IMG/VR virus record: IMGVR_UViG_3300025131_009806 | Span: 1-58,364 of that record | Reading direction: 5' to 3' (one strand) | DNA length: 58,364 nucleotides | DNA from: a virus | Shown: piece after piece, positions 1 to 46,092 of the stretch | Layout: each line of letters opens with the position of its first letter | Numbering within the stretch: the stretch's first letter is position 1 | The notes under the pieces: model-generated | Seen by the model: only the letters and a program-made list of their open reading frames with translations | Told to the model about the DNA's origin: nothing | Database searches by the model: none | Translations under genes and position numbers: made by a program

Positions 1-3000
1 AACGGAGCCACAGGTGTAACTATGTTCGGTGGAGATGTAGTCTTCTCTGGAACGATGTACGCTGATAAGATGGTCGTAGAGCTTGACATGTCAACCACCG
101 GAAGTGTGATGATATCAGGTTCACTCTTTGTATCAAGAAGTGCAACGATAAATCAGGGATTAGAAGTCAATAAGAGTAGTGGTCAAACTTCAGAGCATGA
201 TTTCTATGTGCATACTAACGGATCAGCTGGTGGGTCTTTCTTCAGGGTTGACGTCGACGATGCGGAATACGGATCAGTATTTTTTGGCGATTCAGCAAAG
301 GGTCTAAATGTTCTGCTATACGGCTCAGCCGGTCCGAATTATGTTTATTGGGATCAGAGTGATAATAAGTTTGAAGTTCATGGAGAGCTACTTCAGCAGA
401 GAGGCGATGCCACTTTTAATGAAGCGGCTGGAGACTATGACTTCCGAGCTGAGTCCCAGTCTATTCCAGGTACAATCGTTATCGATTCTGGTACAGACCA
501 GCTCCTTCTCCACTGCTCTGGAACAACAGCGGGAAAGGCGGGCGGTGATCACGCAGGCGCACCCTCTGCTGGATCTGATGTAGCAACATATATCAGCGGA
601 TCAGCTGGATCCAAAAATATAGCAAACACCAAGGGCACGACACTGGTCACTGGAGATCTTGTTATATCTGGCGGCATGGCATTACTCGGCGCCGGTGGGG
701 GCACACTTGAGTTAACTGCTTCAATGATGGATCTCGGCTGGAAACCATCAGATCCAAGTGCTCGAGTCTCTCCGATATTTAGGCTATCTAGTCATAATGA
801 TGAGCAGAAACTGGACGTGCCTCCTGTAGACGTTGGCACCATTGAATTCTGGGGTGGAGATAGTACATATAAAAATGTCGGAGCAAAAATAATAGCTACA
901 CCCGGTGCTTCGTGGATCGCCTCAGATAGATCACCAACAAATATTGAATTCTGGACAAATGATGATACCACGGGTCCCATTAAGCGAAGTATGGAGATCC
1001 ACTATGGTGGAGGAGTCGGAATAGGAGTTGAGGGATCAGGCCCGTCAGAAGTTCTCCATATCAGCGGTACAGCTGCTGGACAAAATGCAGCACTCAGGGT
1101 AGACAGTCCATTTGGAGAAAGTGGAAGAACTGCTTCAAGCAAATATTATGCATATTCTGATAAGTCAACAAATTCTAATAACTACTATGCTTATAAATCT
1201 ACTGGAGCTGTAACTGCCTCAGATATTTCACAATTCAAAAAGTTTGCATTTGATAGAGGTGCTGATGGCAATAACGGATTAGCTACACTCTCCTGGGATG
1301 CACCGTATAAGTCAGAAGGAACTAGCAACTTCGAGCATCTTGATCATCATATCACTTACATCGGTCAGCGAGGAGCTAGCATAGCATTTCTCTCAGCTTT
1401 AGCAGTTGTATCTTCATCATATGGTCTGGGGTATAACTACCCCACAGTAGATCCCGGTGCACAGGTATTAATACTATCTGGAACAACAGATTCTGGAACT
1501 GACATAGTTGATCCTAGAAGATTCACAGATACAAACTTCTTCGTATCTGGATCTCGAGGGACAAGAAATAGCACACTAAGAGGAACATCAGTATTTGGTG
1601 GAGACCTAGTGGTATCTGGAAACACAGAGCTTAAAAGCAGCGTTACTATTAATGAGTCTGCTGCTGATTTTGACTTCCGCGCTGAATCTCAGAATATCCC
1701 TGGAGCCATTGTCATAGATTCCGGTACTGATCAGCTCCTCCTTCACGCTTCAGGTACGATAGCTGCCACCGCAGGCGGTGCTATCGAGGGAGCGGCTGGC
1801 TCCGACGTAGCCACATATATCAGTGGAACAACAGAGTCCCGTGGAATTAGTCGCAGTAAGGGAACTACACTCATCACAGGCGACATGGCACTGAGTGGAA
1901 CAATGCATCTACTGTCAGGTGCAATATTCACAGTAAGTGAGGCACTATCGTGGAACACTGCAGAGAATGTATCTATATTCGGGACTGCTAATTCACTAAA
2001 TCTAAATTCAGATGCATTTCTATATGTCAATGCATCATCAGAAACTAATTTTCAGACAGGCGATGTTAATCTAAATACAACAAATGGTGACTATGACTTT
2101 ACTGTTAGGTCAGGTGAGTCAGGATTAGATGGAATGATCGTCGTAGACGGCGGCACAGATCAGCTTATTCTACATGCATCACAAAGTGTGGCAATATGGG
2201 CCGGCGGCCCAGGAATTCCTGCAGGCACAGATGTTGGCATCTACCTGAGCGGTGCCATCGGTTCAGCAGGTGCGGCAAATAGTAAGGGAGCTGCCTTATT
2301 CACAGGTGATGTCGTCGTGTCTGGATCTCTGTACGGAGGCTACGTCGCCCAGTACGATCAGGAGGTTTTAAAGATTGGCTCTATCCTTCAGATTCAAGGT
2401 TCTAGTTTTTACTTTGATGGAGGGGCAACCGACACCGACACCTCACCTGAAGGAGAAGACATCGTCTTCTCCGTGTCCGGAAGCATCGGTAATAAGGATC
2501 AGCCCTCCTTCGAGGCTAGTGGAGGAACAGCGGTATTCGGCGGTGATCTCGTCGTCTCTGGAAACACATACCTTGCACTACGACAGATAGAAGGCCATGG
2601 TTCTGACCTCGCTAATGTCGGAATAGATGTCAACTTCTTCGTATCCGGATCTGACGGAGGAAAGATAAGCGGTGAGGGCGTCGCAGTCTTCGGAGGAGAT
2701 CTCCAAGTATCGGGTGGTATCTATATAGGTGATCCTGCTGGTTCAGCAAATGCTTCACTTATAGAGACAGATGGCACCGGAAAATTAACAATAGACGGAG
2801 AAAATTACGTTCAGCTCTCTGCTGACTCCGAGGTCATGCTCTTCGCTGGCTACAAGGAGGTATTAACTGCTTATGGCACCGGTGTGGTAGTAAATGAGCT
2901 CGCCCAGGCTGCTGTGGACTTCAGGGTTGAGACTGCCACTAAGGATCACGCTCTCTTCGTTGATGCTGCTCATGATCGTATTTACTTTCTCTCAAGTAGC

Positions 3001-4026
3001 TCTGGAGCAGCTGTAGACATACGAGAAGAGGCCATACTGATACTGTCAGGAGGTAGTCATAATGATCCCATAGGAGATGCACAGAAATACACAGACACAA
3101 ACTTCTTCGTCTCTGGGTCGATCGGTTCAGTAGTTAATGGCTTTGGCGCTGAGCAGGTTGGCAATGGAGATCTGGGCGCAGCAGTCTTTGGCGGAGATGT
3201 GGTTATCTCTGGCACTTTGTTTACCCCGGCATCGACCATTTACGTGGGGGGAGCAAAGCTAGGTTCGACGCCCACCGGTGAGTTTCTCTTCCTCTCAGGC
3301 GGTGCAGCAACAGATCCAGATCCAGCAAATGCTAGTGATGCAAACTTCTTTGTCTCCGGCGCTATTAACTCGATAGGAGGCGAAAATGCTGGAACTGCTG
3401 TCTTTGGTGGTGACATGTTAGTTAGCGGTAACTTGCAGATTCCGGCCGGGCAGAGTATCGTATTCGACAACAAAAACTTCAGAATGGGAAGCAGTAACGG
3501 AAGTGACCTGATGATAACTGCCGGTGGCGAGTTCAGCCTAGAGGCAGATAATTCTAAGATGGCATTTGATGCCGGCTCTGGCCAAGGATTCGATTTTAGA
3601 GGATCATCACAAAACTTCCTAGAGCTCGCTCCTAGTGGTGCACTTAGCTACACATCAGCTGTTGGAACTTTGATGGTCCTATCGGGATCGCAGTCAGGTG
3701 CAACCTCTCCAGATGAGTCAACATATACAGACACATGCTTCTTCGTATCTGGTGCAGTTGGATCGTACGGAACTGGTAATAGAGGAACCGCACTCTTCGG
3801 CGGAGACGTGGTTGTGAGCGGATCATTTTTTCCCGGAGAAGATACTGCATCTAATCTTGGAAGTGAAGATAATCGCTGGGCAAACGTCTACACGGGTGAC
3901 CTTCATCTCAGAAATGAGAAGGGAAGCTGGACAATACAAGAGGATGTTGACAGATTGATAGTTATAAATAACATGACCGGAAAGAGGTACAAGATGGCGC
4001 TCGAGCCACTGGGAGATGAAGAGTAA
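1..4026 (+). CDS. Repeat-rich tail fibre / structural protein, 5' partial
   Basis: Likely a trimeric tail fibre or other virion surface protein. The reading frame is open to base 1 and the residues before the first ATG (base 22) already belong to a repeat unit, so that ATG is internal and the true start lies outside the window; 1341 residues are visible. The protein is built of about ten units ending in a GGDxVVSG-type motif, often preceded by FFVSGS. A longer module of about 80 residues (DFRAES, IDSGTDQLLLH, SDVATYISG) occurs three times. The C-terminus has NLGSEDNRWANVYTGDLHL followed by a short tail, a signature I know from cyanophage structural proteins. It is followed directly by a second fibre gene of the same family (TAATG overlap). 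The exact structural role is inferred. A+T content is clearly lower than in the sugar genes downstream. Confidence 0.75.
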   Translation, partial: NGATGVTMFGGDVVFSGTMYADKMVVELDMSTTGSVMISGSLFVSRSATINQGLEVNKSSGQTSEHDFYVHTNGSAGGSFFRVDVDDAEYGSVFFGDSAKGLNVLLYGSAGPNYVYWDQSDNKFEVHGELLQQRGDATFNEAAGDYDFRAESQSIPGTIVIDSGTDQLLLHCSGTTAGKAGGDHAGAPSAGSDVATYISGSAGSKNIANTKGTTLVTGDLVISGGMALLGAGGGTLELTASMMDLGWKPSDPSARVSPIFRLSSHNDEQKLDVPPVDVGTIEFWGGDSTYKNVGAKIIATPGASWIASDRSPTNIEFWTNDDTTGPIKRSMEIHYGGGVGIGVEGSGPSEVLHISGTAAGQNAALRVDSPFGESGRTASSKYYAYSDKSTNSNNYYAYKSTGAVTASDISQFKKFAFDRGADGNNGLATLSWDAPYKSEGTSNFEHLDHHITYIGQRGASIAFLSALAVVSSSYGLGYNYPTVDPGAQVLILSGTTDSGTDIVDPRRFTDTNFFVSGSRGTRNSTLRGTSVFGGDLVVSGNTELKSSVTINESAADFDFRAESQNIPGAIVIDSGTDQLLLHASGTIAATAGGAIEGAAGSDVATYISGTTESRGISRSKGTTLITGDMALSGTMHLLSGAIFTVSEALSWNTAENVSIFGTANSLNLNSDAFLYVNASSETNFQTGDVNLNTTNGDYDFTVRSGESGLDGMIVVDGGTDQLILHASQSVAIWAGGPGIPAGTDVGIYLSGAIGSAGAANSKGAALFTGDVVVSGSLYGGYVAQYDQEVLKIGSILQIQGSSFYFDGGATDTDTSPEGEDIVFSVSGSIGNKDQPSFEASGGTAVFGGDLVVSGNTYLALRQIEGHGSDLANVGIDVNFFVSGSDGGKISGEGVAVFGGDLQVSGGIYIGDPAGSANASLIETDGTGKLTIDGENYVQLSADSEVMLFAGYKEVLTAYGTGVVVNELAQAAVDFRVETATKDHALFVDAAHDRIYFLSSSSGAAVDIREEAILILSGGSHNDPIGDAQKYTDTNFFVSGSIGSVVNGFGAEQVGNGDLGAAVFGGDVVISGTLFTPASTIYVGGAKLGSTPTGEFLFLSGGAATDPDPANASDANFFVSGAINSIGGENAGTAVFGGDMLVSGNLQIPAGQSIVFDNKNFRMGSSNGSDLMITAGGEFSLEADNSKMAFDAGSGQGFDFRGSSQNFLELAPSGALSYTSAVGTLMVLSGSQSGATSPDESTYTDTCFFVSGAVGSYGTGNRGTALFGGDVVVSGSFFPGEDTASNLGSEDNRWANVYTGDLHLRNEKGSWTIQEDVDRLIVINNMTGKRYKMALEPLGDEE
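430..675 (+). repeat. Fibre module copy A (DFRAES...SDVATYISG...TGD)
   Basis: First of four protein-level copies of an approximately 80-residue module in the two fibre genes. It runs from YDFRAES through IDSGTDQLLLH and SDVATYISG to a TGDLVISG unit. The other copies lie at about 1663-1900, 2086-2325 and 4446-4674. Copies A and B are also alike in DNA (for example GGTAC then CAGCTCCT within the IDSGTDQLLLH part), which points to duplication or recombination inside the locus. Confidence 0.7.
1663..1900 (+). repeat. Fibre module copy B
   Basis: Second copy of the approximately 80-residue module. It reads FDFRAES, IDSGTDQLLLH, SDVATYISG and KGTTLITGD. It is the copy closest to copy A in both residues and bases. 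Confidence 0.7.
2086..2325 (+). repeat. Fibre module copy C (diverged)
   Basis: Third copy of the module. It reads YDFTVRS, VDGGTDQLILH, TDVGIYLSG and KGAALFTGD. It has diverged further from copies A and B but keeps the order and spacing of the conserved blocks. Confidence 0.65.
3755..3806 (+). repeat. 52-base near-identical segment shared by both fibre genes
   Basis: This segment matches 5611-5662 in the next gene with three mismatches by eye. It encodes a VGSYGT...GTALFGGD unit. Synonymous sites are also conserved, so the similarity goes beyond shared protein sequence and suggests recent duplication or gene conversion. Confidence 0.7.
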
Positions 4027-6278
4027 TGGCATTTATAGGTCAATCATTATCGGGCTCTATCGGCCCGCTGTTAATTCAGTCCGGTAGCGGCACAGGCGGC
4101 CAGGTCCTAATACTTTCTGGAGGCGGCGGCGAATCTTATGATGAGTCTACATATACAGACATTAACTTCTTCGTCTCGGGGAGTGTTGGAAAAAAAGACT
4201 CACAGATAATGGGAGTATCTCTCTTCGGCGGAGACCTCCACATATCAGGCAACCTAACAGTAGACGGCACGTCGCCGGAGCCGCCACCGCCGCCGCCGCC
4301 ACCAGACGTGGGATGGTTCGGCATTGCCGATGGTATAATCTTCACAACTGGATCTCTCAATATAGGCACTGCTGGTGATGGAACAAATCCAGATATCAAA
4401 TTTTTCGACGGAGGCTCTGCTACTTTCAATAAGCAGGGCACAGTCGGTGCTTTCGTCGTCACATCACCAGATATACCAGGCTCGATACTGGTAGATGGCT
4501 CAACTAATCAGCTTTTTCTACACTCATCTGGAACAACAGCTACAGAGGCAGGTGGGCAAGATCATCCTGCTGGAACAGATGTAGCAACCTACATAAGTGG
4601 CACAGTTGGATCTGTCGGTGTATCAATGAGCAAGGGAGCAACTCTTATCACAGGAGATACAGTCCTCAGCGGAACTGTCCAGATGCAAGATGGAAAGTCT
4701 CTTGTCTTTAACGGTAGCACGAATACAGCTAAGATAACAAATAACGGATCCAATCTTGATATAAACGCTCCTAGTCTCCTTAATCTTAATGTTGGCTCAT
4801 CAGTAGCTATTGGGGAGCATTCAATAGGAACAGATATCATTCTGTCAGTATCCGGTGCCCTCGGAGGAAAGGCATCACGCAGGGGGGTTTCACTCTTCGC
4901 AGGTGACACATTTATCTCTGGAACACTCATAGTCTCTGGCGCTCAGAGACCAGGAAACGGATATTCTGGTGGGTCCATATCAGGATCAATCCATCACACA
5001 TCACTCGGCTTATCTTATCTAGCTGCTGGTTCTAATGTAACGATCACATCTGCATCTAATGGACAGGTCACGATCGACTCATCAGGAGGGGGAGGAGGAA
5101 TATCATGGTACGGCTCCACAGCTAACGGTGTCGCAACATTTAAGGACGCAGATGAGGCAACCGTAGAAGCAAATCTAACATTCGACGGAACAAACCTTCT
5201 GATCAAAGACCAGGGTCAGATCCAATTTCTTAATGGCGACCAGAGCATCAGTAATGCCGGAACTGATCTATCTATTTTATCTAGTGAAGGTGTGGCCATA
5301 GCAGCAGACGGCGGTGTTCTCAATCTGCAGGGTTCTAATCAAATAAAACTGACAACATCAGGTGGACCAGTTCTGATACTGACAGGTGTGGGTGCATCTA
5401 CAGCGATGTCACCGGACGAGTCAAATTACTCCGATCTAATCTTCTTCGTATCCGGTTCTGCTGGGTCTAAGGACACAGCTAACCCAGGAGTTTCGCTATT
5501 TGGCGGTGACCTCGTGGTCTCCGGTAACACTTACCTTGCGATGAAGAAATCAGGTCCCGGATCTGATCTCGTAGGTGTCGGAACAGACACAAACTTCTTT
5601 GTATCTGGCACAGTTGGATCGTACGGAACTAGCAATAAAGGAACCGCACTCTTCGGCGGAGATGTGGTCATGTCTGGAAGTCTATACGGCGGTGATTATT
5701 CTCAGCATCCGCAGAAGCCGGGAACACGGCTGACAATAAAGTCATCTGTCACCATTAATGCAGCATTATTTGAGTTCACAGGTAATGAAGATGAGGGTCC
5801 AGACGCTGGGAGAGACGCAAGCTTCCTTATCTCTGGTACAATGGATGGTAAGCAGAGTGGTGGCGGAGTAGCAGTTTTCGGAGGTGACACTGTTATCTCT
5901 GGAACCCTGTATGGCGGTGTAATAGATTACGGCGAGGGCGAAATAGAAGAGAAGCTCACAATTGGTACAGCTCTTGAGATTGCAGGTTCTAGATTCTTCT
6001 TTGACGGAGACGATCATGAAAATGAAGAAGCTGCCGCGCCTGACGGCGATGATATTGTATTCTCGGTCTCAGGAAGCATCGGTGGTAAGGGACAAGACGC
6101 ATTCGAGGGAGATGGCGGAGTAGCAGCCTTCGGCGGTGACATGGTGGTATCAGGAAGCATCTATGTCTCACCAGAGGACACAGGTGAGGGTTTTGTCCTA
6201 ATCTCTCCAAGCGGAAAATTGTTCAGGATAAATGTAGCTGACAACGGAGATCTCAGCACAACGGATATAACACCATAA
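4026..6278 (+). CDS. Second repeat-rich tail fibre / structural protein
   Basis: A 750-residue relative of the preceding fibre protein, probably a surface-exposed virion component. It has seven GGD/AGD...SG units preceded by FFVSG, SVSG or YISG, and one copy of the IDSGTDQLLLH-type module at about residues 140-220. A run of eight prolines lies near residue 90, a likely rigid linker. A glycine-rich stretch (SSGGGGGISWYG) near residue 355 begins a domain found once only. The C-terminal part (about 640-715) parallels the YFDGG...DIVFSVSGSIG block of the first protein. Unlike the first protein it lacks the NRWANVYTGDLHL tail and ends in a short polar segment. Its ATG overlaps the upstream stop (TAATG), so the two are probably translated together. 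Confidence 0.75.
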   Translation: MAFIGQSLSGSIGPLLIQSGSGTGGQVLILSGGGGESYDESTYTDINFFVSGSVGKKDSQIMGVSLFGGDLHISGNLTVDGTSPEPPPPPPPPDVGWFGIADGIIFTTGSLNIGTAGDGTNPDIKFFDGGSATFNKQGTVGAFVVTSPDIPGSILVDGSTNQLFLHSSGTTATEAGGQDHPAGTDVATYISGTVGSVGVSMSKGATLITGDTVLSGTVQMQDGKSLVFNGSTNTAKITNNGSNLDINAPSLLNLNVGSSVAIGEHSIGTDIILSVSGALGGKASRRGVSLFAGDTFISGTLIVSGAQRPGNGYSGGSISGSIHHTSLGLSYLAAGSNVTITSASNGQVTIDSSGGGGGISWYGSTANGVATFKDADEATVEANLTFDGTNLLIKDQGQIQFLNGDQSISNAGTDLSILSSEGVAIAADGGVLNLQGSNQIKLTTSGGPVLILTGVGASTAMSPDESNYSDLIFFVSGSAGSKDTANPGVSLFGGDLVVSGNTYLAMKKSGPGSDLVGVGTDTNFFVSGTVGSYGTSNKGTALFGGDVVMSGSLYGGDYSQHPQKPGTRLTIKSSVTINAALFEFTGNEDEGPDAGRDASFLISGTMDGKQSGGGVAVFGGDTVISGTLYGGVIDYGEGEIEEKLTIGTALEIAGSRFFFDGDDHENEEAAAPDGDDIVFSVSGSIGGKGQDAFEGDGGVAAFGGDMVVSGSIYVSPEDTGEGFVLISPSGKLFRINVADNGDLSTTDITP
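4446..4674 (+). repeat. Fibre module copy D
   Basis: Fourth copy of the approximately 80-residue module, here in the second fibre gene. It reads IPGSILVDGSTNQLFLH, TDVATYISG and KGATLITGD. Its presence in both genes supports a common origin. Confidence 0.65.
5611..5662 (+). repeat. Partner of the 52-base near-identical segment at 3755-3806
   Basis: Differs from 3755-3806 at three positions by eye. Encodes VGSYGTSNKGTALFGGD. Confidence 0.7.
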
Positions 6279-6343: not shown

Positions 6344-8266
6344 GTGTTCACTAGTCCATTTAACACTAATGAGGTCTCTATTCCAGAGAACACTCAGATA
6401 GTTTTTGTATCTGACCTTTTTGTCGAGGATCTCCTCGGCGGAGCTGAGATGACCACTGAGGCCATCGTCAGTAGCTCACCATATAATGTCTTTAAATTGA
6501 GATCTAAGGATGTCAACATGAATACGCTTTCACAGGGACAGGGCTGCTACTGGATTTTTGGAAATTTTTCTGGAATGGACCAACGTCTGATTCCCACCGT
6601 CGTGGCTAACATGAAGTACTCTATAGTAGAGTATGACTATAAGTACTGTCAGCATAGGTCTACAGAAAAACATCTAGCAGTAGAAGGAGAGGCATGTAAC
6701 TGTCACAATGAGAATCACGGAAAGATGATATCTGCATTTTATCACGCAGCTGACTCACTCTGGTGGATGTCTGAGGGCCAGATGAAGAAGTATCACAGTG
6801 TTTTTCCGTTTCTAGCAAGAAATAAAAATACAGTTCTCTCATCTGTTTTTGACAATAGTTTTTTTGAAAAAATTGCATCGCTTTTTAGTAAAAATAATGA
6901 AAATAAAAATGATAAGTGGACAGTCATCGGGTCCACATCCTGGATAAAGGGAACAGATGATGCAGAGGCATACTGCAAGGAAAATGAGTTAGAATATGAT
7001 GTCGTATGGAACTTACCCTATGACGATCTACTTGAGAGACTTTCCCTTTCAAAGGGTCTTGTATTTTTACCTAAGGGAGGTGACACGTGTCCTAGGACTG
7101 TCATCGAGGCAAAGCTCTTAGGGTGCGACCTAATTCTTAATGAAAATGTTCAACACTCAAAAGAGACATGGTTCAACACACCTGACATAAAGGGGACACT
7201 TGATTATCTAATCAGCGCTAGAAAACGATTTTGGACGGGTGTGAGTGATGTCATAAATAAAGCACCAACAATAAGTGGGTACACAACTACAAAGGACTGC
7301 ATAGATCAAAAGTATCCATTTGTATCATCTATAAGATCCCTGATAGGGTTCTGTGACCAAGTCGTCGTCGTAGATGGTGGTTCAACAGATGGAACGTGGG
7401 AACGCCTTCTAGAGCTGCGAGAGACCTATCCAGAGCTGATTATACATCAACAGGGCAGGGACTGGGAGGAAAAAAGATTCGCAGTATTCGATGGGCTTCA
7501 AAAGGCTCTAGCAAGGACACTTTGCACAGGCGAGCTCTGCTGGCAACAGGACTCTGATGAAGTGGTTCATGAGGAAGACTATAAAAAAATTAAAAATTTA
7601 GCGAAGACTCTGACAAAAAATATAGATCTCGTTGCACTTCCAGTTATTGAATTCTGGGGCGGTCCTGAAAAAATTAGAGTGGACATAAATCCCTGGAAGT
7701 GGAGGCTCAGTAGAAATAGACCTCACATAACACACGGTATTCCTGCAGAGCTAAGAAAGTTTGATGATGAAGGAAGGCTTTACTCTAGCCCAGGATCAGA
7801 TGGATGTGATTACATAAGAAGTGACACCTTTGAAAGAATTCCATTTGCAGGATTTTATACAGAGGATGCACATAAGAATAGAGAGCTAGCACTCGCAGGT
7901 GACAATGATGCTCTAGAGAGATATAAGGCATGGTTCGAAGAAATTGCAAATAATCTCCCATCTGTTTATCACTATTCATGGTTTGATATAGATAGAAAGA
8001 TAAAGACATATAAGAACTATTGGTCAAGACACTGGCAGAGCCTATATGATATAGAGCAAGAAGACACAGCTGAAAATAATATGTTCTTTAATAAGCCGTG
8101 GAAGGATGTCACAGAACTAGATATAGAGAGCTTGTCTAAAAGATTATCAGATGATATGGGTGGATGGATTTTTCACCAAAAGATAGACTTTGACAAAAAA
8201 ACACCCTATATAAGATGCGCTACTAAAAACCACCCAGAGATAATAAAAGAGTGGATCAAAAAGTGA
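6344..8266 (+). CDS. Two-domain glycosyltransferase (GT-B-like N-terminus, GT2 C-terminus)
   Basis: A 640-residue protein that looks like two glycosyltransferases in one chain and opens the sugar cassette. Residues about 1-290 resemble a GT4/GT-B enzyme, including a donor-site-like stretch LPKGGDTCPRTVIEAKLLGC. Residues about 315-640 are a GT2/GT-A domain with VVVVDGGSTDGTW near residue 340 and a metal-binding DSDE near 403-406. The start is a GTG with CGGAGAAA a few bases upstream; no ATG occurs in frame nearby. It begins 65 bases after the fibre gene. Such chains typically add two successive sugars, which is inferred here. Donor and acceptor are unknown. Confidence 0.7.
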   Translation: MFTSPFNTNEVSIPENTQIVFVSDLFVEDLLGGAEMTTEAIVSSSPYNVFKLRSKDVNMNTLSQGQGCYWIFGNFSGMDQRLIPTVVANMKYSIVEYDYKYCQHRSTEKHLAVEGEACNCHNENHGKMISAFYHAADSLWWMSEGQMKKYHSVFPFLARNKNTVLSSVFDNSFFEKIASLFSKNNENKNDKWTVIGSTSWIKGTDDAEAYCKENELEYDVVWNLPYDDLLERLSLSKGLVFLPKGGDTCPRTVIEAKLLGCDLILNENVQHSKETWFNTPDIKGTLDYLISARKRFWTGVSDVINKAPTISGYTTTKDCIDQKYPFVSSIRSLIGFCDQVVVVDGGSTDGTWERLLELRETYPELIIHQQGRDWEEKRFAVFDGLQKALARTLCTGELCWQQDSDEVVHEEDYKKIKNLAKTLTKNIDLVALPVIEFWGGPEKIRVDINPWKWRLSRNRPHITHGIPAELRKFDDEGRLYSSPGSDGCDYIRSDTFERIPFAGFYTEDAHKNRELALAGDNDALERYKAWFEEIANNLPSVYHYSWFDIDRKIKTYKNYWSRHWQSLYDIEQEDTAENNMFFNKPWKDVTELDIESLSKRLSDDMGGWIFHQKIDFDKKTPYIRCATKNHPEIIKEWIKK

Positions 8267-8967
8267 AAGTGATTTTTATAGTTCCTTGCTTCAATGCTGA
8301 GAAAAATCTAGATAACTTATTTAAGTCCTTAATCTCTCAAGATGAAGAGGACTGGGTGTGTATTCTTATAGATGATATGTCAGAGGATCACACGGCCAAA
8401 AAAATAATAGAGCTCTCTAGAAATGATAAAAGGTTTCACTGTCACATAAATAGAAGTAAAAAATTTGCATTAAGAAATATTGTTGAAACATCAAGGCTGT
8501 TTCAAGGTATGAGTGATGTTATAATTGCTGTCATCGATGGCGATGATCAACTTTGTAATAATAAGACAATCAGCTTATTAAAGACCGAATATGAAAATGG
8601 TAAAGACGTCGTATGGACAGCCCACAGATGGGATATTAATGAATTAAATATATCAAAAGAGATGCCTATGAATGTAGATCCATATTCGTGGCCGTGGTGT
8701 TCATCACACCTAAGAACATTTTCTTCGACATTGCTTTCTCGCATATCTGATATAAACTTTAAAGATACACTTGGTAATTGGTTTAAAAGAGGGTATGATC
8801 AAGCACTTATGCTTCCCATTTTAAGCCTGACAAAAAATAGAGCGTATATAGATGAGGTTTGTTACAGGTATAATATAAACTCTGTCTCAATTAAAGATAG
8901 ATCATGGGAAGAGAAGGGACAGATTTCTACGATCAATACAGTTAGAGCTAGAGGATTTTTAGAATAG
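8263..8967 (+). CDS. GT2 family glycosyltransferase
   Basis: A 234-residue GT-A fold enzyme. The N-terminus VIFIVPCFNAEKNLDNL and the following LIDDMSEDHT are the classical GT2 nucleotide-binding segments, and VIDGDDQ near residue 90 supplies the DxD-like metal site. I chose GTG 8263, which forms a GTGA overlap with the upstream stop as at other junctions of this cassette; GTG 8251 in the same frame would add four residues. The specific sugar is not predictable. Confidence 0.75.
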   Translation: MKVIFIVPCFNAEKNLDNLFKSLISQDEEDWVCILIDDMSEDHTAKKIIELSRNDKRFHCHINRSKKFALRNIVETSRLFQGMSDVIIAVIDGDDQLCNNKTISLLKTEYENGKDVVWTAHRWDINELNISKEMPMNVDPYSWPWCSSHLRTFSSTLLSRISDINFKDTLGNWFKRGYDQALMLPILSLTKNRAYIDEVCYRYNINSVSIKDRSWEEKGQISTINTVRARGFLE

Positions 8968-12892: not shown

Positions 12893-13802
12893 GATTTTTG
12901 TACTGCCTCCTAGAGAAAGCTGGATATGTGATAGAATTTCAGCTGAGTGGTATGAAAATTGTCAAGATATTTCAACAAAAAATATCATAGATGCAGACAT
13001 AATATGGCTATTAGCAGGCTGGTGCTGGAAGCAAGTTAATTTAGAGCTTTTAAAGACAAAAAGAGTTGTTGTCACAATTCATCATATTGTTCCAGAAAAG
13101 TTTACGCAAGAAAAATTTAATGACTTTATGTTAAGAGATAAGTTTGTTGATCTTTATCACGTGCCCAATGATAAAGCCTACAAGGCTGTCTCTAGATTAA
13201 CACAAAAACCAATTAAGGTAGTAGGCTACTGGTTTGATAAAAAAAAGTGGTTTCATGAAGAAAGGAGCACTTGTAGGGATAGGCTTGGGTTATCAAATAA
13301 TGATTTCATAGTTGGATCATTTCAAAGAGATACAGAGGGATCTGACCTAATAACACCAAAGCTTGAAAAAGGTCCAGATCAGTTTTGTGATTATGTTGGA
13401 AACATGCAAAGAGATAATTTACATGTTCTCCTCGGCGGATGGCGACGACAATATGTGATATCTAGACTAGAAAAAATGAAAATACCCTACACCTATTTTG
13501 AACTTGCAAACCTTGAAACTTTGCGTTTAATGTACTGTTCTCTAGACTTATATGCAATATCATCTAGATACGAGGGAGGCCCACAGTCAGCTCTAGAGGC
13601 CTCTGGAATGCACATCCCTATAGTATCTACAGATGTGGGTATGGTACCAGATATACTTCACAAAGATTGTATATTTGAAAAATTAGATTCTAATTTCTAT
13701 CCAAGTAAAAATCATGTAGAGTTCAACTTTGAACAAGCAATGAAATTTGAGATATTATTACATAAAGAAAGATATATTGAAATGTTTAAGGGAATATTGT
13801 GA
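12882..13802 (+). CDS. GT4-like glycosyltransferase
   Basis: A 306-residue GT-B type protein. GSFQRDTEGSDL near residue 145 is the start of the C-terminal Rossmann half, and SRYEGGPQSALEASGMHIPI near 230 is the donor-site helix with the glutamates typical of GT4. VVTIHHIVPEKF near residue 65 belongs to the N-terminal half. The start overlaps the upstream stop by 11 bases, with ATG codons at 12882 and 12885. It ends in a GTGA overlap with the next gene. Confidence 0.65.
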   Translation: MMSKIFVLPPRESWICDRISAEWYENCQDISTKNIIDADIIWLLAGWCWKQVNLELLKTKRVVVTIHHIVPEKFTQEKFNDFMLRDKFVDLYHVPNDKAYKAVSRLTQKPIKVVGYWFDKKKWFHEERSTCRDRLGLSNNDFIVGSFQRDTEGSDLITPKLEKGPDQFCDYVGNMQRDNLHVLLGGWRRQYVISRLEKMKIPYTYFELANLETLRLMYCSLDLYAISSRYEGGPQSALEASGMHIPIVSTDVGMVPDILHKDCIFEKLDSNFYPSKNHVEFNFEQAMKFEILLHKERYIEMFKGIL

Positions 13803-14782
13803 AAAAAAAGGTAGCTTTGATAACAGGAATAAACGGGATGGACGGTAGCCATCTAGCAGACTTTCTTCTTGATAGAGACTATGAGATTTTCGGTGTTGAA
13901 AGAAGGTCTTCTGTTAAAAATAGAACAAATACAAAACATCTAGAAGGAAAGGTAACTTTTCTCACAGGCGATCTAACAGACCAAAATTCACTCTTTAGGT
14001 GTCTAAAGCAGAGCAATCCTGATGAGGTTTATAATTTAGCTGCGCAGTCTTTTGTAGGAGAAAGTTGGAATACACCAGAGCAAACATCTGATGTCACAGG
14101 TCTAGGGGCACTAAGAATGCTAGAGGCCCTCAGAGAATATAAAGAGACACGTAGTGATTTACGGTATTATCAAGCCAGTTCATCAGAAATGTTTGGTAGA
14201 ATGGTTGAAAATCCAGCAAGTGAAACTACACCGTTTTATCCTAGAAGTCCATATGGTGTCTCTAAACTATATGCACACTGGATCACTAAAAACTATAGAG
14301 AGTCATACGGTATGTTTAACTGCTCTGGTATACTCTTTAATCATGAGTCTGAAAGGAGAGGATTAGAATTTGTGACTAGAAAAATATCTAATGGTGTTGC
14401 AAAAATAAGTCTAGGAATAGCAGACCATATATCTTTAGGAAATCTTGATGCTAAGCGAGACTGGGGCTATGCACCTGACTATGTTGAATCAATGTGGCTA
14501 ATGCTTCAACAAGATGAACCTGATGATTATGTAGTTGCTACTGGAAAGTGTCACTCTATACGAGACTTTTTAAGTGAAGCATTCTCCTTAGTGGGAATCG
14601 AAGACTGGAAAGATTATATTATTCAAGATCCAAGATTTATGAGACCTGCTGAAGTAGATGTTCTCGTTGGAGATAGCTCAAGGGCGAAGAATAATTTGGG
14701 GTGGGAGCCTAAGACATCTTTTAAGGAATTAGTAAGCATCATGGTTAATAGTGATATTGAAATATTAAAAAAGAGCTTATAG
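13799..14782 (+). CDS. gmd: GDP-mannose 4,6-dehydratase
   Basis: Converts GDP-D-mannose to GDP-4-dehydro-6-deoxy-D-mannose, the first step to GDP-fucose, GDP-rhamnose or GDP-perosamine. The 327-residue protein shows the family hallmarks in order: TGINGMDGSHLADFLL (NADP site, residues 9-24), GVERRSS, NLAAQSFVGESW, ASSSEMFG with the catalytic glutamate near 130, YGVSK at 152-156, and ILFNHESERRG. GTG start in a GTGA overlap. No canonical GDP-fucose synthase follows; the RmlD-like or epimerase genes of the cassette, or host enzymes, may take over. Confidence 0.92.
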   Translation: MKKKVALITGINGMDGSHLADFLLDRDYEIFGVERRSSVKNRTNTKHLEGKVTFLTGDLTDQNSLFRCLKQSNPDEVYNLAAQSFVGESWNTPEQTSDVTGLGALRMLEALREYKETRSDLRYYQASSSEMFGRMVENPASETTPFYPRSPYGVSKLYAHWITKNYRESYGMFNCSGILFNHESERRGLEFVTRKISNGVAKISLGIADHISLGNLDAKRDWGYAPDYVESMWLMLQQDEPDDYVVATGKCHSIRDFLSEAFSLVGIEDWKDYIIQDPRFMRPAEVDVLVGDSSRAKNNLGWEPKTSFKELVSIMVNSDIEILKKSL

Positions 14783-14826: not shown

Positions 14827-16467
14827 ATGGTTTCTGAAAAAATGATAGCAGGCGTATGGTCAGGCCATGATTCATCTTATTGTATTCTAGATGGTGGACG
14901 ACCTATCATACACGATGAATATGAGAGATTTATAAGAGAAAAAGAGCCAGCCGGTGACTCTGTAAGATTTCTTTTAGATAACTTTAAAGACCACGGATCA
15001 TTAAAGTATGTAGCAACATGTACACCAACTAATAAGCTAACAGAGCACAAAGAGTCTCTTATAGAGATAAATTCAATAATTTCTAAAAACGGTGGAGGCA
15101 TATATTCAGTTGGACATCATCAAGCACATGCTGCAAATACATTCTTTTCTAGCAATTTCAAAGAATCACTAATCTTGACAATCGACGGCGGCGGAGTCGA
15201 GGATGATGGATTTGAGACAGCATTCACTGTGTGGACAGGCAAAGAAAATGAAATTAACTGTAAGTACAGACTTCCAATGAATGTCTTAAACATAGGTGGG
15301 CTCTGGACACGGGCCACAAGGTATATTTTTGAACTACAGTCAGGGTGGCCACGGGGTCACCAGGCAGGATCTGTGATGGCCATGGCAGCCTTGGGAGATA
15401 GGGAAAAATATGTAAAAGATTTTCATAAAATGCTTACAGAAGACATACAGATAGCTTCTTTTAAGCCTCCAAATCAGCCAAAGGGAGCTTTAATCTTAGG
15501 TAATGATCCAAAGCATCCCTATCTAGACAAATGGAATAAGATAGCAAGAAAAAGTGAGCAAGATAAGTTTGATCTAGCAGCAGGCCTACAATATGCCACA
15601 GAGATCTTCTTTAAAGCTCTTATGACACAAATTATAGGAGAAGTTCCTCAAAAAAATCTTTGTTTAGCTGGCGGCGTATCTCTAAATTGTGTTCTCATAG
15701 GAAAGATAAAAGAATGGTTTCCGCAGATAGAAAATATATTTGCAACAACAGTTCCACATGACGGCGGCATAGCTATAGGGGCAGCTCAGTATGTCTGGCA
15801 TCAAGTCTTAAGAAACGAAAGAATTAAGTGGAAGGATAATTTCACTCCATATCTAGGCAAAACATACTCAGAGCAAGAAGTGATGAAGTCGATATCAGAT
15901 AAAGATAGCGTCGAAATAAAAAAAGTTTCAGACAGCGATGTTATTGATCTTCTCGATCACCAGAAAATTATCTCGGTATTTGGACAAGGTTCAGAATCAG
16001 GTCGTCGTGCACTAGGAAATAGAAGCATATTAGCAGATCCCCGCTCATCTAAAATGAAAGAAATAATAAATGATAAGGTGAAGCACAGGCAGTGGTATAG
16101 ACCATTTGCTCCCTCAATCTTAGAGGAAGAGGGGAAAAATTGGTTTGAAAACTATCAAGAGAGTCCATATATGAGCTTTGCACTACACTTCAAAGAGGAA
16201 AAGAAGGAACTAGTTCCAGCTGTTGTTCACGTAGATGGAACAGCTAGATTGCAGACAGTTACAAGTAATGATAATAATTGGTATCATAATTTTTTAAAGA
16301 TGTGGCACAAAAAATCTGGTGTTCCTATTTTACTTAATACGAGCTTTAATGATAGAGAGCCAATATGTGAAACACCAGACCATGCAATTAATTGTTTTTT
16401 AGGTACAGATATTGACTATCTATACTTTTATGATTATGGATTTTTGCTTTCAAAGGTAGACAAATGA
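14827..16467 (+). CDS. NodU/CmcH-type O-carbamoyltransferase
   Basis: Transfers a carbamoyl group from carbamoyl phosphate to a hydroxyl, in this setting most likely on a sugar. The 546-residue length and layout match the TobZ/NodU family. The N-terminal Kae1-like domain has GVWSGHDSSYCIL, GHHQAHAANTFFSS (residues about 96-109) and LTIDGGG; LAGGVSLNC follows near 280. The C-terminal domain has GSESGRRALGNRSILADPR and WYRPFAPSIL. The start is set by GAGGGAG at 14813-14819. Its position next to the sialic-type module suggests it modifies a sugar of that pathway, which is inferred. Confidence 0.88.
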   Translation: MVSEKMIAGVWSGHDSSYCILDGGRPIIHDEYERFIREKEPAGDSVRFLLDNFKDHGSLKYVATCTPTNKLTEHKESLIEINSIISKNGGGIYSVGHHQAHAANTFFSSNFKESLILTIDGGGVEDDGFETAFTVWTGKENEINCKYRLPMNVLNIGGLWTRATRYIFELQSGWPRGHQAGSVMAMAALGDREKYVKDFHKMLTEDIQIASFKPPNQPKGALILGNDPKHPYLDKWNKIARKSEQDKFDLAAGLQYATEIFFKALMTQIIGEVPQKNLCLAGGVSLNCVLIGKIKEWFPQIENIFATTVPHDGGIAIGAAQYVWHQVLRNERIKWKDNFTPYLGKTYSEQEVMKSISDKDSVEIKKVSDSDVIDLLDHQKIISVFGQGSESGRRALGNRSILADPRSSKMKEIINDKVKHRQWYRPFAPSILEEEGKNWFENYQESPYMSFALHFKEEKKELVPAVVHVDGTARLQTVTSNDNNWYHNFLKMWHKKSGVPILLNTSFNDREPICETPDHAINCFLGTDIDYLYFYDYGFLLSKVDK

Positions 16468-17057
16468 AAGTATGCATAGTTGGAAATTCACCTAATCTTT
16501 TAGATAAAGACTTAGGTGATAAAATAGACATGTGTGACCATGTCATTAGAATTAATGATTTTGTAATAGAGGGATTTGAAAAACAGATAGGCTCTAAAAC
16601 AACTATTATTGCAGCAGGTTTTAGTTCTATTTCTAAGATGCTAAAGGGTGATTACACAACAAGTCATCTTATGAATACGTGTGATATATGGGTTCTTCAT
16701 CCAGAACCAGGAAGGATTAGCAGTGTTGTCAACTATGGAGTGAGTAAAGATAGAATATTTGTAATAGATGGAGATGCTTATAGCTTTTTAAAAAATGTCA
16801 TTTATGAAAATTTTTGGAGAAAGATACCTTCTTGTGGAATAGCAACTATTCAAATGTCACTTAATCACTTTAAAAGTGATGAAATATTTATCGTGGGATT
16901 TGATGAAAATACTGGAAAAGAAGGAAAAGGTCACTATTATGAAAAAGACTTTCTTGATATAGACCTTCCAGGTGACCCAGTAGGTCATGATTTCGCATCC
17001 GAAAATTCTTACATACAGAGACTTGTCGATAAAGAAAGAATTAAAAGGCTTGAATAA
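16464..17057 (+). CDS. Compact GT29-like sialyltransferase
   Basis: Probably moves a CMP-activated nonulosonic acid onto a glycan. All four GT29 sialylmotifs can be read in 197 residues. L is VGNSPNLLDKDLGDKIDMCD plus HVIRIND at about 6-32. S is IPSCGIATIQMSL...DEIFIVGFDE from about 121. Motif III is H157-Y-Y-E160. VS is H175 followed four residues later by E180. It is much shorter than animal enzymes and has no membrane anchor. ATGA overlap with the carbamoyltransferase; CMP-sugar synthase and NeuB genes follow. An older 'DUF115-like' label would be the alternative. Confidence 0.72.
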   Translation: MKVCIVGNSPNLLDKDLGDKIDMCDHVIRINDFVIEGFEKQIGSKTTIIAAGFSSISKMLKGDYTTSHLMNTCDIWVLHPEPGRISSVVNYGVSKDRIFVIDGDAYSFLKNVIYENFWRKIPSCGIATIQMSLNHFKSDEIFIVGFDENTGKEGKGHYYEKDFLDIDLPGDPVGHDFASENSYIQRLVDKERIKRLE

Positions 17058-17119: not shown

Positions 17120-18358
17120 ATGAATACGTGGTATGTCATACCTGCACGCAAGGGTTCTAAGGGGCTCAAGTTTAAAAATAGAAGACTGTTGCCAATAACA
17201 GTAAATCAGATACCTGATCATGAAAAAGATAATATCATAGTATCTACTGATGACGAAGCTCTAATTGATTTCTGTAAAGAGAAAAATATTTTATTTAGAG
17301 ATAGGCCTCGCCATCTATCTAGTGATGAAGCATCTTTAAAGGATGTGATTTTAGATACTGTACAGTATTTTAAAATGGATTCAGATGATATAGTTGTAAT
17401 TCTTTTTCCAACATTTCCACAAAGAACATTTGATGATATCAGAGAAGCCTTAGCTTTTCTAGATAAAAATAACTTAAAGTCTTGCACAGGAAAAAGAGTC
17501 ATAGAAGATAATCATCCGTATCTGTGCTTTGAAAAGTCTGGGAGCATACTGGGAAAAAAGGTCGTAGATCATCCACACTATAGAAGACAAGACTATCCAG
17601 ACTGTTTTGGACTTTGTCATCTTGTATGTGTTGCAAAGGCATCAGAGGTATCAAGGCTTGATGATCTTTTGGTAAATTCTGAAACAGGCTACATGTGGTG
17701 TAGAGATGATCTCATAGATGTTGATTATGAAGAAGATTTTTTAAAGTATTCTGAAAAAATGACATCTGGAATTGAAAGATTTAATCCTAGGGCTTTTGAA
17801 ATAGAATTTTCTCCATTTATAAGACACTTTGATAGATACTTTGATGCAATAAAGCTTTTGGGAAAAACAGGAGATAGAGAGTCTTGGCTAGACTGTGCCT
17901 GTGGCAGTGGATATGGAACATCTTTTTTAACAAATTTTACTAGTAATGTATGGGGGTATGATAGAGATAAAGAGGCTATCATGCATGCTAACTGCTTCTA
18001 TAAGAATAGATTTTGCAATTTTACTTCTAGTATAAATGACCTTAGTGATAAAAGATTTGATATAATTTTTTCAATTGAAACCATAGAGCACATGCCTATA
18101 GAGGAAGCAAAAGTCTTTTTAAGGCAGTGCAATGATATGCTTGTAGATGATGGGCACCTATTAATCACAACACCAATTGTTGAAAAAACAAATTTAAATC
18201 CTACTAATGAATTTCATTTTTTTGAATGTTCACTGAGTGATTTTGTTAGTCTCTTAGCTGATGGTGGATTTAATGTGGTCGATACATTATTAAAAGAAAC
18301 AACTTTTACAGATGGTGAAACAAAAGACCAGGGATATTTTAAGTGTCAAAAATCGTAG
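17120..18358 (+). CDS. CMP-sialate-type cytidylyltransferase fused to a methyltransferase
   Basis: A 412-residue two-domain protein. Residues 1 to about 215 match CMP-N-acylneuraminate cytidylyltransferases: IPARKGSKGLKFKNRRL at 6-22 is the nucleotide-binding signature, IIVSTDDEAL follows, and RPRHLSSDEASLKDV fits the usual RPxxLSxDxAxxxDV block. Residues about 230-412 are a class I SAM methyltransferase with WLDCACGSGYGTSFL near 252, YDRD as the acidic motif II, and SIETIEHM near 315. No stop or frame change separates the domains. The fusion suggests methylation of the activated sugar or its precursor, which is inferred. The NeuB gene follows. Confidence 0.8.
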   Translation: MNTWYVIPARKGSKGLKFKNRRLLPITVNQIPDHEKDNIIVSTDDEALIDFCKEKNILFRDRPRHLSSDEASLKDVILDTVQYFKMDSDDIVVILFPTFPQRTFDDIREALAFLDKNNLKSCTGKRVIEDNHPYLCFEKSGSILGKKVVDHPHYRRQDYPDCFGLCHLVCVAKASEVSRLDDLLVNSETGYMWCRDDLIDVDYEEDFLKYSEKMTSGIERFNPRAFEIEFSPFIRHFDRYFDAIKLLGKTGDRESWLDCACGSGYGTSFLTNFTSNVWGYDRDKEAIMHANCFYKNRFCNFTSSINDLSDKRFDIIFSIETIEHMPIEEAKVFLRQCNDMLVDDGHLLITTPIVEKTNLNPTNEFHFFECSLSDFVSLLADGGFNVVDTLLKETTFTDGETKDQGYFKCQKS

Positions 18359-18415: not shown

Positions 18416-19285
18416 GTGAAAAGCAATAGAAAAAATGTGTTTGTTATCGCAGAAATTGGTATCAATCACAATGGTGATCTCGAAATAGCAAAGCGATTAA
18501 TAGATGAAGCTAATAAGGCAGGATTCAATGCTGTAAAATTTCAAAAGAGAACAGTAGAAGATGTGTATGCTCCTGAAGAGCTTGACAGACTACGAGAAAG
18601 TCCATTTGGAACAACAAATAGAGAACAAAAAAACGGACTAGAGTTTAGAGAAGCAGACTATGATGAAATTGATAGATACTGTAAGACTCTATGTATTGAA
18701 TGGTTTGCATCTTCTTGGGATATTAAGAGTCAAGAATTTATTAGGAAGTATGACTTAAAGTACAATAAAGTTGCTTCTGCAATGTTAACCGTAACACCTC
18801 TTCTTCATAAGATCGCTGAAGAAAGAAAGCACACATTTATATCTACTGGAATGAGTACTCTTAGAGAAATTGATGAAGCTGTAAGAGTTTTTAGAAAATA
18901 TGACTGTCCATTTGAATTGATGCACTGTAACTCATCTTATCCCATGAAGGATGAAGAAGCAAATCTTTTAGTTATTAAAACTCTAAGAAACAGATACAGT
19001 TGTGATGTTGGGTATAGCGGACATGAAAGGGGTGTTAGTGTGACTCTAGCTGCAACAGCAATTGGAGCTACTAGCATTGAAAGACATATAACTCTAGATA
19101 GAACGATGTATGGGTCTGATCAAGCTGCATCTCTTGGACTTCCAGCAGTAAGAAAGCTTGTGAGAGATATTAGGGTTATTGAATCTGCTATGGGTGATGG
19201 TGAAAAAAGAATATATGAGAGCGAGAAATCTTGTAGAGAGAAGCTATCAAATCCTTACTGGTTGAAGAAAATGCGAGGTGAATAG
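18416..19285 (+). CDS. neuB: NeuB-family nonulosonic acid synthase without SAF domain
   Basis: Condenses phosphoenolpyruvate with an N-acyl-hexosamine-type sugar to a nine-carbon nonulosonic acid. The 289 residues cover the TIM barrel only: FVIAEIGINHNGDLEIAK at 9-26, GFNAVKFQKR, FASSWD, FISTGMSTLREI, CNSSYPMKDEEANL, GYSGHERG and ERHITLDR are all present in family order. The protein ends at SNPYWLKKMRGE, where classical NeuB (about 345 residues) continues into the antifreeze-like SAF domain. GTG start, set by TAGGAGA at 18403-18409. Between the CMP-sugar synthase and an aminotransferase gene. Product (sialic, legionaminic or pseudaminic type) not resolved. Confidence 0.88.
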   Translation: MKSNRKNVFVIAEIGINHNGDLEIAKRLIDEANKAGFNAVKFQKRTVEDVYAPEELDRLRESPFGTTNREQKNGLEFREADYDEIDRYCKTLCIEWFASSWDIKSQEFIRKYDLKYNKVASAMLTVTPLLHKIAEERKHTFISTGMSTLREIDEAVRVFRKYDCPFELMHCNSSYPMKDEEANLLVIKTLRNRYSCDVGYSGHERGVSVTLAATAIGATSIERHITLDRTMYGSDQAASLGLPAVRKLVRDIRVIESAMGDGEKRIYESEKSCREKLSNPYWLKKMRGE

Positions 19286-19287
19286 TG

Positions 19288-20466
19288 ATGGGTGATCCGA
19301 AGTGGACCTCGGGAAATGAATTAAAGTATTTAAAAGAAGTTCTTAGTAATGAGCACAAGTCAAATCCATTTACTGACAGGCTTGAATCATCTTTTTGTGA
19401 GCTTTATAGCACAAAGTATGCCATAGCGATGAACTCTGCAACTAGTGCAATTCATACAGCCCTGGTTGCAGCAGGTGTTGGTCCCGGTGATGAAGTTATT
19501 ACAACTCCATACACTGTTCTTGTAGATAGTAGCATGGCGATGATAGTTGGAGCAACTCCTGTTTTTGCAGATATTGACTATAACACTCATAATATTTGCC
19601 CAAAGTCTATTTCTGAAAGAATTACTGATAAGACAAAGGCAATTATTGCTGTTTCTTATCATGGTCTTCCCACTGATATTGATCCAATTATGGACCTAGT
19701 AAAGGGAACAGATATAGTTGTAATTGAAGACAATGCTCAAACACAATGTGCACTATATAAGAATAGAAATATTGGAAATACTGCTCATTTTTCTCTTTGG
19801 TCTTTTGAGAGAACAAAACATCTTTCAACCGGCGAGGGAGGAATTCTGTGTACAAATGATGAAAATCTGGCCACAGAAGCAAGAAAGTTTGCAGGAATGG
19901 GATTTAAGAATCTAACAGCTGGAAAAAGTAAAATGGTAGCAATCACACCAAAAGATTTTCAGAGACCAGATTATACACGTCATGATCGAATTGGATTAAA
20001 CTATCGCTACAATGAATTTTGTGCAGCAGTAGCACTTGCACAATTTGAAAGGCTAGAAGAGATTGTCAGGCTAAGGCAAGATGTAGCAAAGCTTTATGAT
20101 GATGCATTTGCTGACACAGACTTCGAACCTCAGCTTGTTCCTGAAGGGTATACTAGTGCATACTTTACATATTGTGCTAAGTCTCCATTTAATAATACAC
20201 GAGAGTGGTTAGCATTTTATAACTATCATCATAATAATTGTGGAGATGATTTTTATGGGATGATGCAGCCTTCTTATTTTGAACCGATCATGGTTGAAAA
20301 AGGTTTCGCTGAAAAGTATGGGGGTACCTGTCCTGTAGCAGAAGAAGTTCAAAGAAGAAGTATGTTATTTAAGACAAATTATAGAAGTCTTGAAGAGGCA
20401 AATCGATATATTGATATTCTTAAACTGACCCTCTGTGCACATATGGAGGGAAAAATAAGAGCATGA
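19288..20466 (+). CDS. DegT/DnrJ/EryC1/StrS sugar aminotransferase
   Basis: A PLP enzyme of 392 residues that would put an amino group on a keto-sugar nucleotide. AMNSATSAIHTAL, GDEVITTPYTVL, VIEDNAQ and SFERTKHLSTGEGG are family landmarks, with K177 in the last as the expected Schiff-base lysine; HDRIGLNYRYNEFCAA follows. It lies next to NeuB, like the PseC/LegC aminotransferases of pseudaminic and legionaminic acid clusters, so a UDP-4-keto sugar is a plausible substrate. ATG 19288 is preferred to GTG 19285 because GAGGTG at 19275-19280 is well spaced. ATGA overlap with the SDR gene. Confidence 0.85.
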   Translation: MGDPKWTSGNELKYLKEVLSNEHKSNPFTDRLESSFCELYSTKYAIAMNSATSAIHTALVAAGVGPGDEVITTPYTVLVDSSMAMIVGATPVFADIDYNTHNICPKSISERITDKTKAIIAVSYHGLPTDIDPIMDLVKGTDIVVIEDNAQTQCALYKNRNIGNTAHFSLWSFERTKHLSTGEGGILCTNDENLATEARKFAGMGFKNLTAGKSKMVAITPKDFQRPDYTRHDRIGLNYRYNEFCAAVALAQFERLEEIVRLRQDVAKLYDDAFADTDFEPQLVPEGYTSAYFTYCAKSPFNNTREWLAFYNYHHNNCGDDFYGMMQPSYFEPIMVEKGFAEKYGGTCPVAEEVQRRSMLFKTNYRSLEEANRYIDILKLTLCAHMEGKIRA

Positions 20467-21284
20467 AATTATTTGATCTATCAGGCAAAAAATGTTTAAT
20501 TACAGGAGCTGGGGGACTTCTAGGAAGGTATCATGCAGAAGCTATTATTGAGGCTGGAGGGTCTGTTATTTTAACTGATATTGATCGTAATAGTGTAGTA
20601 TCATTAGCAGAAGATCTAAAAGAAGGATATGAAAAAGAGTGTGCATCCTGGGCAGTTATGGATGTGACAGATCACAAGTCAATTTCTGGGGTATTAAATC
20701 GTATGGGACCTATTGATATTTTAATTAATAATGCTGCCAAAGATCCAAAAGTAGATAGCACTGGATTAAATGATTCAATTCCACAGTCAAGATTTGAAGT
20801 CATGTCTCTTAAATCATGGAAGGAAGGATTAGATGTATCTTTAAATGGTACATTTTTGGTGACACAAGCTGTTATTAATAAAATGATAAAGAATAATACA
20901 GCTGGAGTTATACTGAATATCTCGTCAGATCTTAGTGTTATAGCACCTGATCAAAGAATATATAAGAATTTATCTGAATCATTTTCTGAACAAAATGTTA
21001 AGCCTATATTTTATTCTGCTTCAAAGTGGGCTATTGTTGGGATGACTAAATATCTTGCCACATATTTTGCATCAAAAAATATAAGAGTTAACTCTATAAG
21101 CCCTGGCGGAGTATTCAATGATCACCCAAAAGGTTTTGTAGAAAAAATATCTAATTTGATACCTATGTCACGAATGGCAAATGTTGATGAGTATAAGGGA
21201 GCAGTTATCTTTGCTTGTTCTGACGCTAGTTCGTATATGACTGGCCATAATCTTATTTTAGATGGTGGAAGAAGCCTATGGTAG
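20463..21284 (+). CDS. Short-chain dehydrogenase/reductase
   Basis: A classical SDR of 273 residues. The cofactor motif TGAGGLLG is at 14-21, followed by NNAAKDP, NISSD with the catalytic serine, and Y184-S-A-S-K188. SISPGG and MTGHNLILDGG close the fold. SDRs of this kind occur next to neuA and neuB in bacterial flagellin or surface sialic-type gene sets (PtmA-like), which fits its position. The substrate is unknown. It overlaps both neighbours by a few bases. Confidence 0.8.
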   Translation: MKLFDLSGKKCLITGAGGLLGRYHAEAIIEAGGSVILTDIDRNSVVSLAEDLKEGYEKECASWAVMDVTDHKSISGVLNRMGPIDILINNAAKDPKVDSTGLNDSIPQSRFEVMSLKSWKEGLDVSLNGTFLVTQAVINKMIKNNTAGVILNISSDLSVIAPDQRIYKNLSESFSEQNVKPIFYSASKWAIVGMTKYLATYFASKNIRVNSISPGGVFNDHPKGFVEKISNLIPMSRMANVDEYKGAVIFACSDASSYMTGHNLILDGGRSLW

Positions 21285-46078: not shown

Positions 46079-46092
46079 CTTAGGAGTGTGTG

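Follow-up and report, generated by a model that had tools for sequence, protein, structure and literature searches.

Genomic context

The analysed DNA (referred to as the window; 58,364 nucleotides of an IMG/VR virus record, the contig being a fragment) contains between about 6 and 43 kb a glycan cluster of roughly 35 kb and roughly 35 ORFs. It encodes glycosyltransferases of families GT2 and GT4, a GDP-mannose dehydratase, epimerases, aminotransferases, methyltransferases, a carbamoyltransferase, a sulfotransferase, a nucleotidyltransferase and a UDP-glucose/GDP-mannose dehydrogenase. Within this cluster an ORF of 197 aa occupies exactly positions 16464-17057 of the + strand. The relevant genes are as follows:

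13799-14782, + strand: GDP-mannose 4,6-dehydratase (TIGR01472, 426 bits, cut-off 415)
14827-16467, + strand: carbamoyltransferase of the NodU/CmcH type (PF16861, PF02543), stop overlapping the GT29 start
16464-17057, + strand: GT29 (sialyltransferase-type) glycosyltransferase, soluble, 197 aa (PF00777, PDB phmmer, AF2 fold)
17120-18358, + strand: CMP-sugar synthetase domain (residues about 1-215; PF02348, 33 bits) fused to a methyltransferase domain (about 240-386; PF13489)
18416-19285, + strand: NeuB-type nonulosonic acid synthase, 289 aa (PF03102, 228 bits)
19285-20466, + strand: DegT/DnrJ/EryC1/StrS sugar aminotransferase (PF01041, 250 bits)
20463-21284, + strand: short-chain dehydrogenase (PF13561, 133 bits)
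46090-46581, + strand: baseplate wedge subunit (gp25-like), weak match (phrog_43, E 0.01)
46586-48445, + strand: baseplate wedge protein, gp6-like (phrog_219, E 5.9e-12)

The start codon of the GT29 gene overlaps the stop codon of the upstream carbamoyltransferase gene (ATGA), the CMP-sugar synthetase gene begins 62 bp downstream, and NeuB follows on the same strand. In the PDB the product of 17120-18358 matches CMP-NeuAc synthetases best (6ifd, 1e-10; 1eyr, 2e-9); its fusion to a SAM methyltransferase suggests methylation of the CMP-sugar or of its precursor. The NeuB-type protein is related to a sialic acid synthetase (PDB 6ncs, 1.5e-42) and scores 250 bits against NCBIfam NeuB_NnaB, which is under the equivalog cut-off of 400. 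The usual sialic acid synthases carry a C-terminal antifreeze-like (SAF) domain, for which the NeuB protein of the window gave no match.

Judged by its genes, the contig is a tailed phage with T4-type baseplate genes because it encodes the gp6-like wedge protein (46586-48445), which shares 33% full-length identity with a protein annotated as baseplate wedge in Flavobacterium phage immuto, and 31% with a protein of the huge phage LR756508. The weaker gp25-like match in front of it lies in the same gene order as the baseplate assembly and wedge genes of immuto. The virus record and its baseplate wedge genes thus agree with the initial annotation, which had described the glycosyltransferase as phage-borne. 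Two large ORFs, 22-4026 (1334 aa) and 4026-6278 (750 aa), are located directly upstream of the glycan cluster; neither has a match in PHROGs or Pfam, and 22-4026 has none in the PDB either.

Family and fold of the GT29 protein

The product of 16464-17057 is a member of glycosyltransferase family 29, as the initial annotation had proposed. It matches PF00777 with 72 bits (E 6.8e-20) compared to a curated cut-off of 23 bits, and the Pfam scan revealed no second family at E<=1; PHROGs holds no family for it. A phmmer search of the PDB found mammalian ST3Gal1 as best match (5e-9), followed by ST6GalNAc2, ST8SiaIII and ST6Gal1, and all eight top distinct PDB sequences belong to GT29. The profile of the viral GT29 set reaches ST3Gal1 at 1.6e-30. 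The protein was also claimed to be soluble, which is corroborated by hydropathy analysis: no hydrophobic segment was found (maximal 19-residue Kyte-Doolittle mean 0.89), and the type II membrane anchor of animal GT29 enzymes is lacking.

An AF2 model was calculated from an alignment of the window protein and 27 viral relatives, leaving out sequences of the annotated phage/plasmid collection (mean pLDDT 84.6, pTM 0.85); confidence is lowest in the loop that connects motifs III and VS (pLDDT 55). The predicted structure adopts the GT-A variant fold of sialyltransferases, its 30 top PDB fold matches being without exception GT29 enzymes, and superimposes on all four solved mammalian subfamilies with TM-scores of 0.66-0.78, normalized by query length.

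Another family of the same fold, either GT42 with the Campylobacter enzymes Cst-I and Cst-II or the MptE/DUF115 type, had to be considered. GT42 enzymes have a related GT-A variant fold, CstII is reached by the viral GT29 profile (4e-5) and likewise has nothing in front of the first motif (its chain residue 1 is aligned to profile position 28), and Cst-I is the next fold match of the model after GT29; MptE-like phage proteins are also found among the fold matches, at greater distance. However, GT29 is far ahead in sequence (profile E 1.6e-30 vs 4e-5) and in fold (E 4.5e-11 vs 4e-4; TM 0.78 for the best GT29 match vs 0.60 for Cst-I), GT42 was not found by the single-sequence PDB search, and PF00777 is matched by all 34 scanned members of the viral set, none of which convincingly matches any other family. 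An assignment to GT42 or to the MptE/DUF115 type is accordingly extremely improbable. The better match to another family, named in the initial annotation as a refuting result, was not encountered. Moreover, sialylmotifs are only weakly conserved in GT42 (PMC5811610), and the link between GT29 and GT42 is already known from fold and published phylogeny (PMC8433944, PMC5811610).

Sialylmotifs and active-site residues

All four sialylmotifs of the GT29 family are present in the order initially annotated:

16470-16616, + strand: sialylmotif L, residues about 3-51 (VCIVGNS...GDKID...RIND...IGSKT; alignment to 2wnb)
16824-16904, + strand: sialylmotif S, residues 121-147, IPSCGIATIQMSLNHFKSDEIFIVGFD (S123, G125 and F146 conserved)
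16932-16943, + strand: sialylmotif III, H157-Y-Y-E160, with the equivalent of the catalytic acid H299
16986-17003, + strand: sialylmotif VS, H175-x4-E180, with the equivalent of the catalytic base H316

The roles of the active-site residues were derived from those of ST3Gal1 (Ortiz-Soto et al., PMC6884586), in which N147, S148 and N170 bind CMP, H299 serves as catalytic acid and H316 as catalytic base. The alignment relates N147, S148, N170, S268 and F289 of human ST3Gal1 to N8, S9, N31, S123 and F146 of the window protein, and H299, Y300, H316 and E321 to H157, Y158, H175 and E180. The CMP-binding N-S and N of motif L are therefore retained (N8, S9, N31), as are the S-x-G ... G-F pattern of motif S (S123, G125, G145, F146) and the H-x4-E pattern of motif VS, whose H175 and E180 are at least 90% conserved among 28 viral sequences. 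HYYE (157-160) fits the motif III consensus (H/y)-Y-(Y/W/F/h)-(D/E/...) (PMC8433944). Spacings are identical between N147 and N170 (23) and between H316 and E321 (5), and differ by one residue between H299 and H316 (17 in ST3Gal1 vs 18 in the window protein). Most residues of the ST3Gal1 CMP site are present. Three residues of the substrate site are not kept, T269 being replaced by C124, W297 by K155 and Y191 by G52 or F53. With respect to the position of the histidines at the CMP site, sequence alignment and superposition of the model agree at the level of the whole fold rather than of interatomic distances.

The cysteine pair joining motifs L and S in animal GT29 enzymes is absent; the only cysteines are at positions 4, 24, 73 and 124, and the site of the disulphide partner in motif S is occupied by another residue. 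As this pair is, like the membrane anchor, also missing in bacterial GT29 proteins (PMC5811610), it is no general requirement for GT29 membership.

Relatives and size

No near relative came up when the protein alone was searched against genome and viral contigs, and the best identity to any relative is about 31%. Distant GT29-like genes, some of them shorter, are present in about 49 IMG/VR viral contigs, partly near-copies, and in two huge phages: LR756508 contains at least five PF00777 genes, four of them in one array, and LR756500 contains one, none annotated in the deposited records. The array of LR756508.1 (L002:9183-14001) consists of GT29 genes for 210, 227, 226 and 249 aa, with NeuB and a further ORF lying between them. 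Like the window protein, the GT29 proteins of both huge phages are phage-borne, those examined having 206-249 aa, and the GT29 of LR756508 adjoins GDP-mannose dehydratase and NeuB in a phage that shares the baseplate wedge protein of the window. In contrast, they are at most 28% identical to the window protein over the whole alignment, and the GT29 of LR756508 is multi-copy. In a tree of 44 relatives the window protein is placed on a long, unsupported branch beside another long branch, and no phylogenetic claim is made.

A weak PF00777 match in the cultured Stenotrophomonas phage DLP6 (31.8 bits, motif L only) was discarded as support; the gene next to it is not a CMP-synthetase by Pfam. PF00777 was detected in one of 299 Bacillota genomes, namely the seed genome, and hence no host is inferred. 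This sole match in 299 genomes of the phylum is a GT29 domain forming part of an open frame of 832 aa in a metagenome-derived Ruminiclostridium genome (L044:6174-8669).

The initial view of GT29 as a mainly eukaryotic family has to be revised. Petit et al. 2018 (PMC5811610) described 23 GT29 proteins from bacteria, most of them Alphaproteobacteria, that have neither a transmembrane segment nor the L-S disulphide. In BFVD/UniProt, one phage protein (A0A6J5NLG3) already bears the name 'Glycosyl transferase family 29'. The bacterial proteins resemble the window protein in possessing motifs L, S, III and VS and in lacking both the anchor and a conserved L-S cysteine pair, but are cellular and, as exemplified by WP_114294753.1 of Pseudosulfitobacter (333 vs 197 aa), can be considerably larger. 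Mammalian ST3Gal1 (2wnb) and ST6GalNAc2 (6apl), the best sequence and fold matches, share the catalytic histidine pair and the CMP-phosphate asparagines, yet are longer, contain a disulphide and reside in the Golgi as type II membrane proteins. A paper treating GT29 in phages was not found in the open-licence full-text literature, and GT29 in viruses of bacteria appears to be undescribed in the literature searched. The window gene is well supported as a new member of GT29 from a bacterial virus. Its product is a genuine but not a unique phage GT29, and the greater interest lies in the phage cassette.

The suggestion that the protein represents the catalytic minimum of the fold was abandoned. 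From motif L to the C-terminus it comprises 196 residues, compared to 181, 186, 189 and 193 in relatives with an H-Y-[YW] motif III, and a divergent relative of 168 aa is still modelled as GT29 (pLDDT 91; GT29 in 23 of 23 PDB matches at E<=0.001). It belongs to a still shorter viral set of 159-178 residues with a changed motif III (WTDP, WHEK, FHDK). Short GT29-like proteins of about 167-190 aa are also encoded as tandem pairs in several viral contigs (L018:9489-10561, L025:9998-11067, L035:10446-11515); in these, motif III is replaced by the same sequences, and no NeuB was found in the records tested.

Linkage to CMP-synthetase and NeuB

Virus records gathered with GT29 seeds were inspected for genes of sugar activation. 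Among the 18 with a GT29 match of at least 50 bits, 16 contain a CMP-synthetase (CTP_transf_3) and 12 a NeuB. The distance to GT29 is at most 5 kb for the CMP-synthetase in 13 of these 16 records (3.6 expected, p 5e-5) and for NeuB in 10 of these 12 (3.3 expected, p 1e-4), the p-values being based on shuffled positions and thus on an assumed random placement, while sugar genes cluster anyway. Of thirteen records with weaker, mostly short GT29 proteins, five contain a CMP-synthetase and none a NeuB. In four unlike records the GT29 and synthetase matches are separated by no more than 21, 26, 81 and 91 bp, which suggests that the two proteins function as a pair.

Proposed pathway and acceptor

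Beyond the observed family, fold, catalytic residues, solubility, phage context and recurrent gene linkage, we infer the activity, exact sugar, linkage and acceptor of the GT29 protein. We consider it rather probable that a phage-run pathway makes and activates a nonulosonic acid and transfers it via GT29, most likely to a glycan on a virion protein. NeuB (18416-19285) would condense phosphoenolpyruvate with a six-carbon sugar to a nonulosonic acid, which the CMP-synthetase domain (17120-18358) would activate with CMP. The soluble GT29 protein, presumably metal-independent and inverting, would then take the nonulosonic (sialic-acid-like) sugar from the CMP-sugar in the one-step His/His mechanism of its family, H175 serving as base and H157 as acid, and add it in the host cytoplasm to a growing glycan. 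Most likely, this glycan would be attached to a phage (virion) protein, its assembly being the task of the remaining cytoplasmic glycosyltransferases encoded in the cluster.

NCBIfam did not decide between the possible nonulosonic acids, as both NeuB and the synthetase score under the equivalog cut-offs. This fact, together with the inclusion of CMP-Kdo synthetases in CTP_transf_3 and the lack of a detected NeuB in 6 of the 18 clear GT29 records, would also be compatible with CMP-Kdo or another CMP-activated sugar acid as donor. Such a donor is nevertheless unlikely, since the neighbouring gene encodes NeuB (PF03102) and not KdsA, and the best PDB matches are NeuAc, pseudaminate or spore-coat synthases for NeuB and CMP-NeuAc synthetases for the synthetase. 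It is likewise quite unlikely that the GT29 protein is a relic that has lost its catalytic activity, or is no enzyme at all, and simply persists in the cluster. Phage genomes do contain short, divergent GT29-like proteins that lack HYYE, but the window protein has kept both histidines of catalysis, the asparagines of the CMP-phosphate site and the glutamate of motif VS, and its gene is uninterrupted, with metabolic genes closely adjoining on either side.

Of all steps in the proposed mechanism, the acceptor is the least secure. A cytoplasmic acceptor is favoured because neither domain searches nor hydropathy revealed a Wzx/Wzy-like multi-spanning membrane protein (flippase/polymerase) in the cluster with its roughly 35 ORFs. 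It is on this absence of export machinery that our preference for a virion protein, to which we give slightly less than an even chance, is based; in a fragmentary contig, export genes may lie elsewhere or be provided by the host. A precedent for direct cytoplasmic transfer of a nonulosonate to a protein, flagellin, is FlmG (PMC7591256), although it belongs to a different enzyme class from GT29. Alternatively, the same enzyme might modify a host surface glycan (LPS, capsule or exopolysaccharide), and the recoded surface would block superinfection. Modification of O-antigen or capsule by phages is well known. For Acinetobacter, phage-encoded enzymes are reported to change pseudaminic acid (PMC12053666). 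The cluster also encodes a GtrB-like GT2 (8251-8967, phrog_841), and flippase and polymerase could come from the host. As neither these two nor a lipid-linked initiating transferase was recognised in the cluster, we regard a host surface acceptor as possible but rather unlikely, and tentatively retain the virion protein.

The repeated occurrence of linked genes for GT29, CMP-sugar synthetase and NeuB among many phages offers a testable pathway for making and attaching a sialic-acid-like sugar. If virions carry this sugar, it would have a bearing on adsorption, on host and immune recognition and on the origin of eukaryotic sialyltransferases. As a speculative and somewhat doubtful generalization, tailed phages might possess a large, fast-diverging set of soluble GT29 proteins with their own NeuB and CMP-synthetase, which sialylate virion proteins in the cytoplasm and include the closest sequence bridge between animal GT29 and bacterial GT42. 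Animal GT29 enzymes depend on disulphides, and therefore small soluble GT29 proteins without them could serve as useful enzymes.

Two further genes of the glycan cluster are worth recording. A PD-(D/E)XK nuclease (PF12705, 39289-40128) is inserted among the glycan genes, and a B12-binding radical SAM protein (29839-31911) has its best match in a KedN5-type C-methyltransferase.
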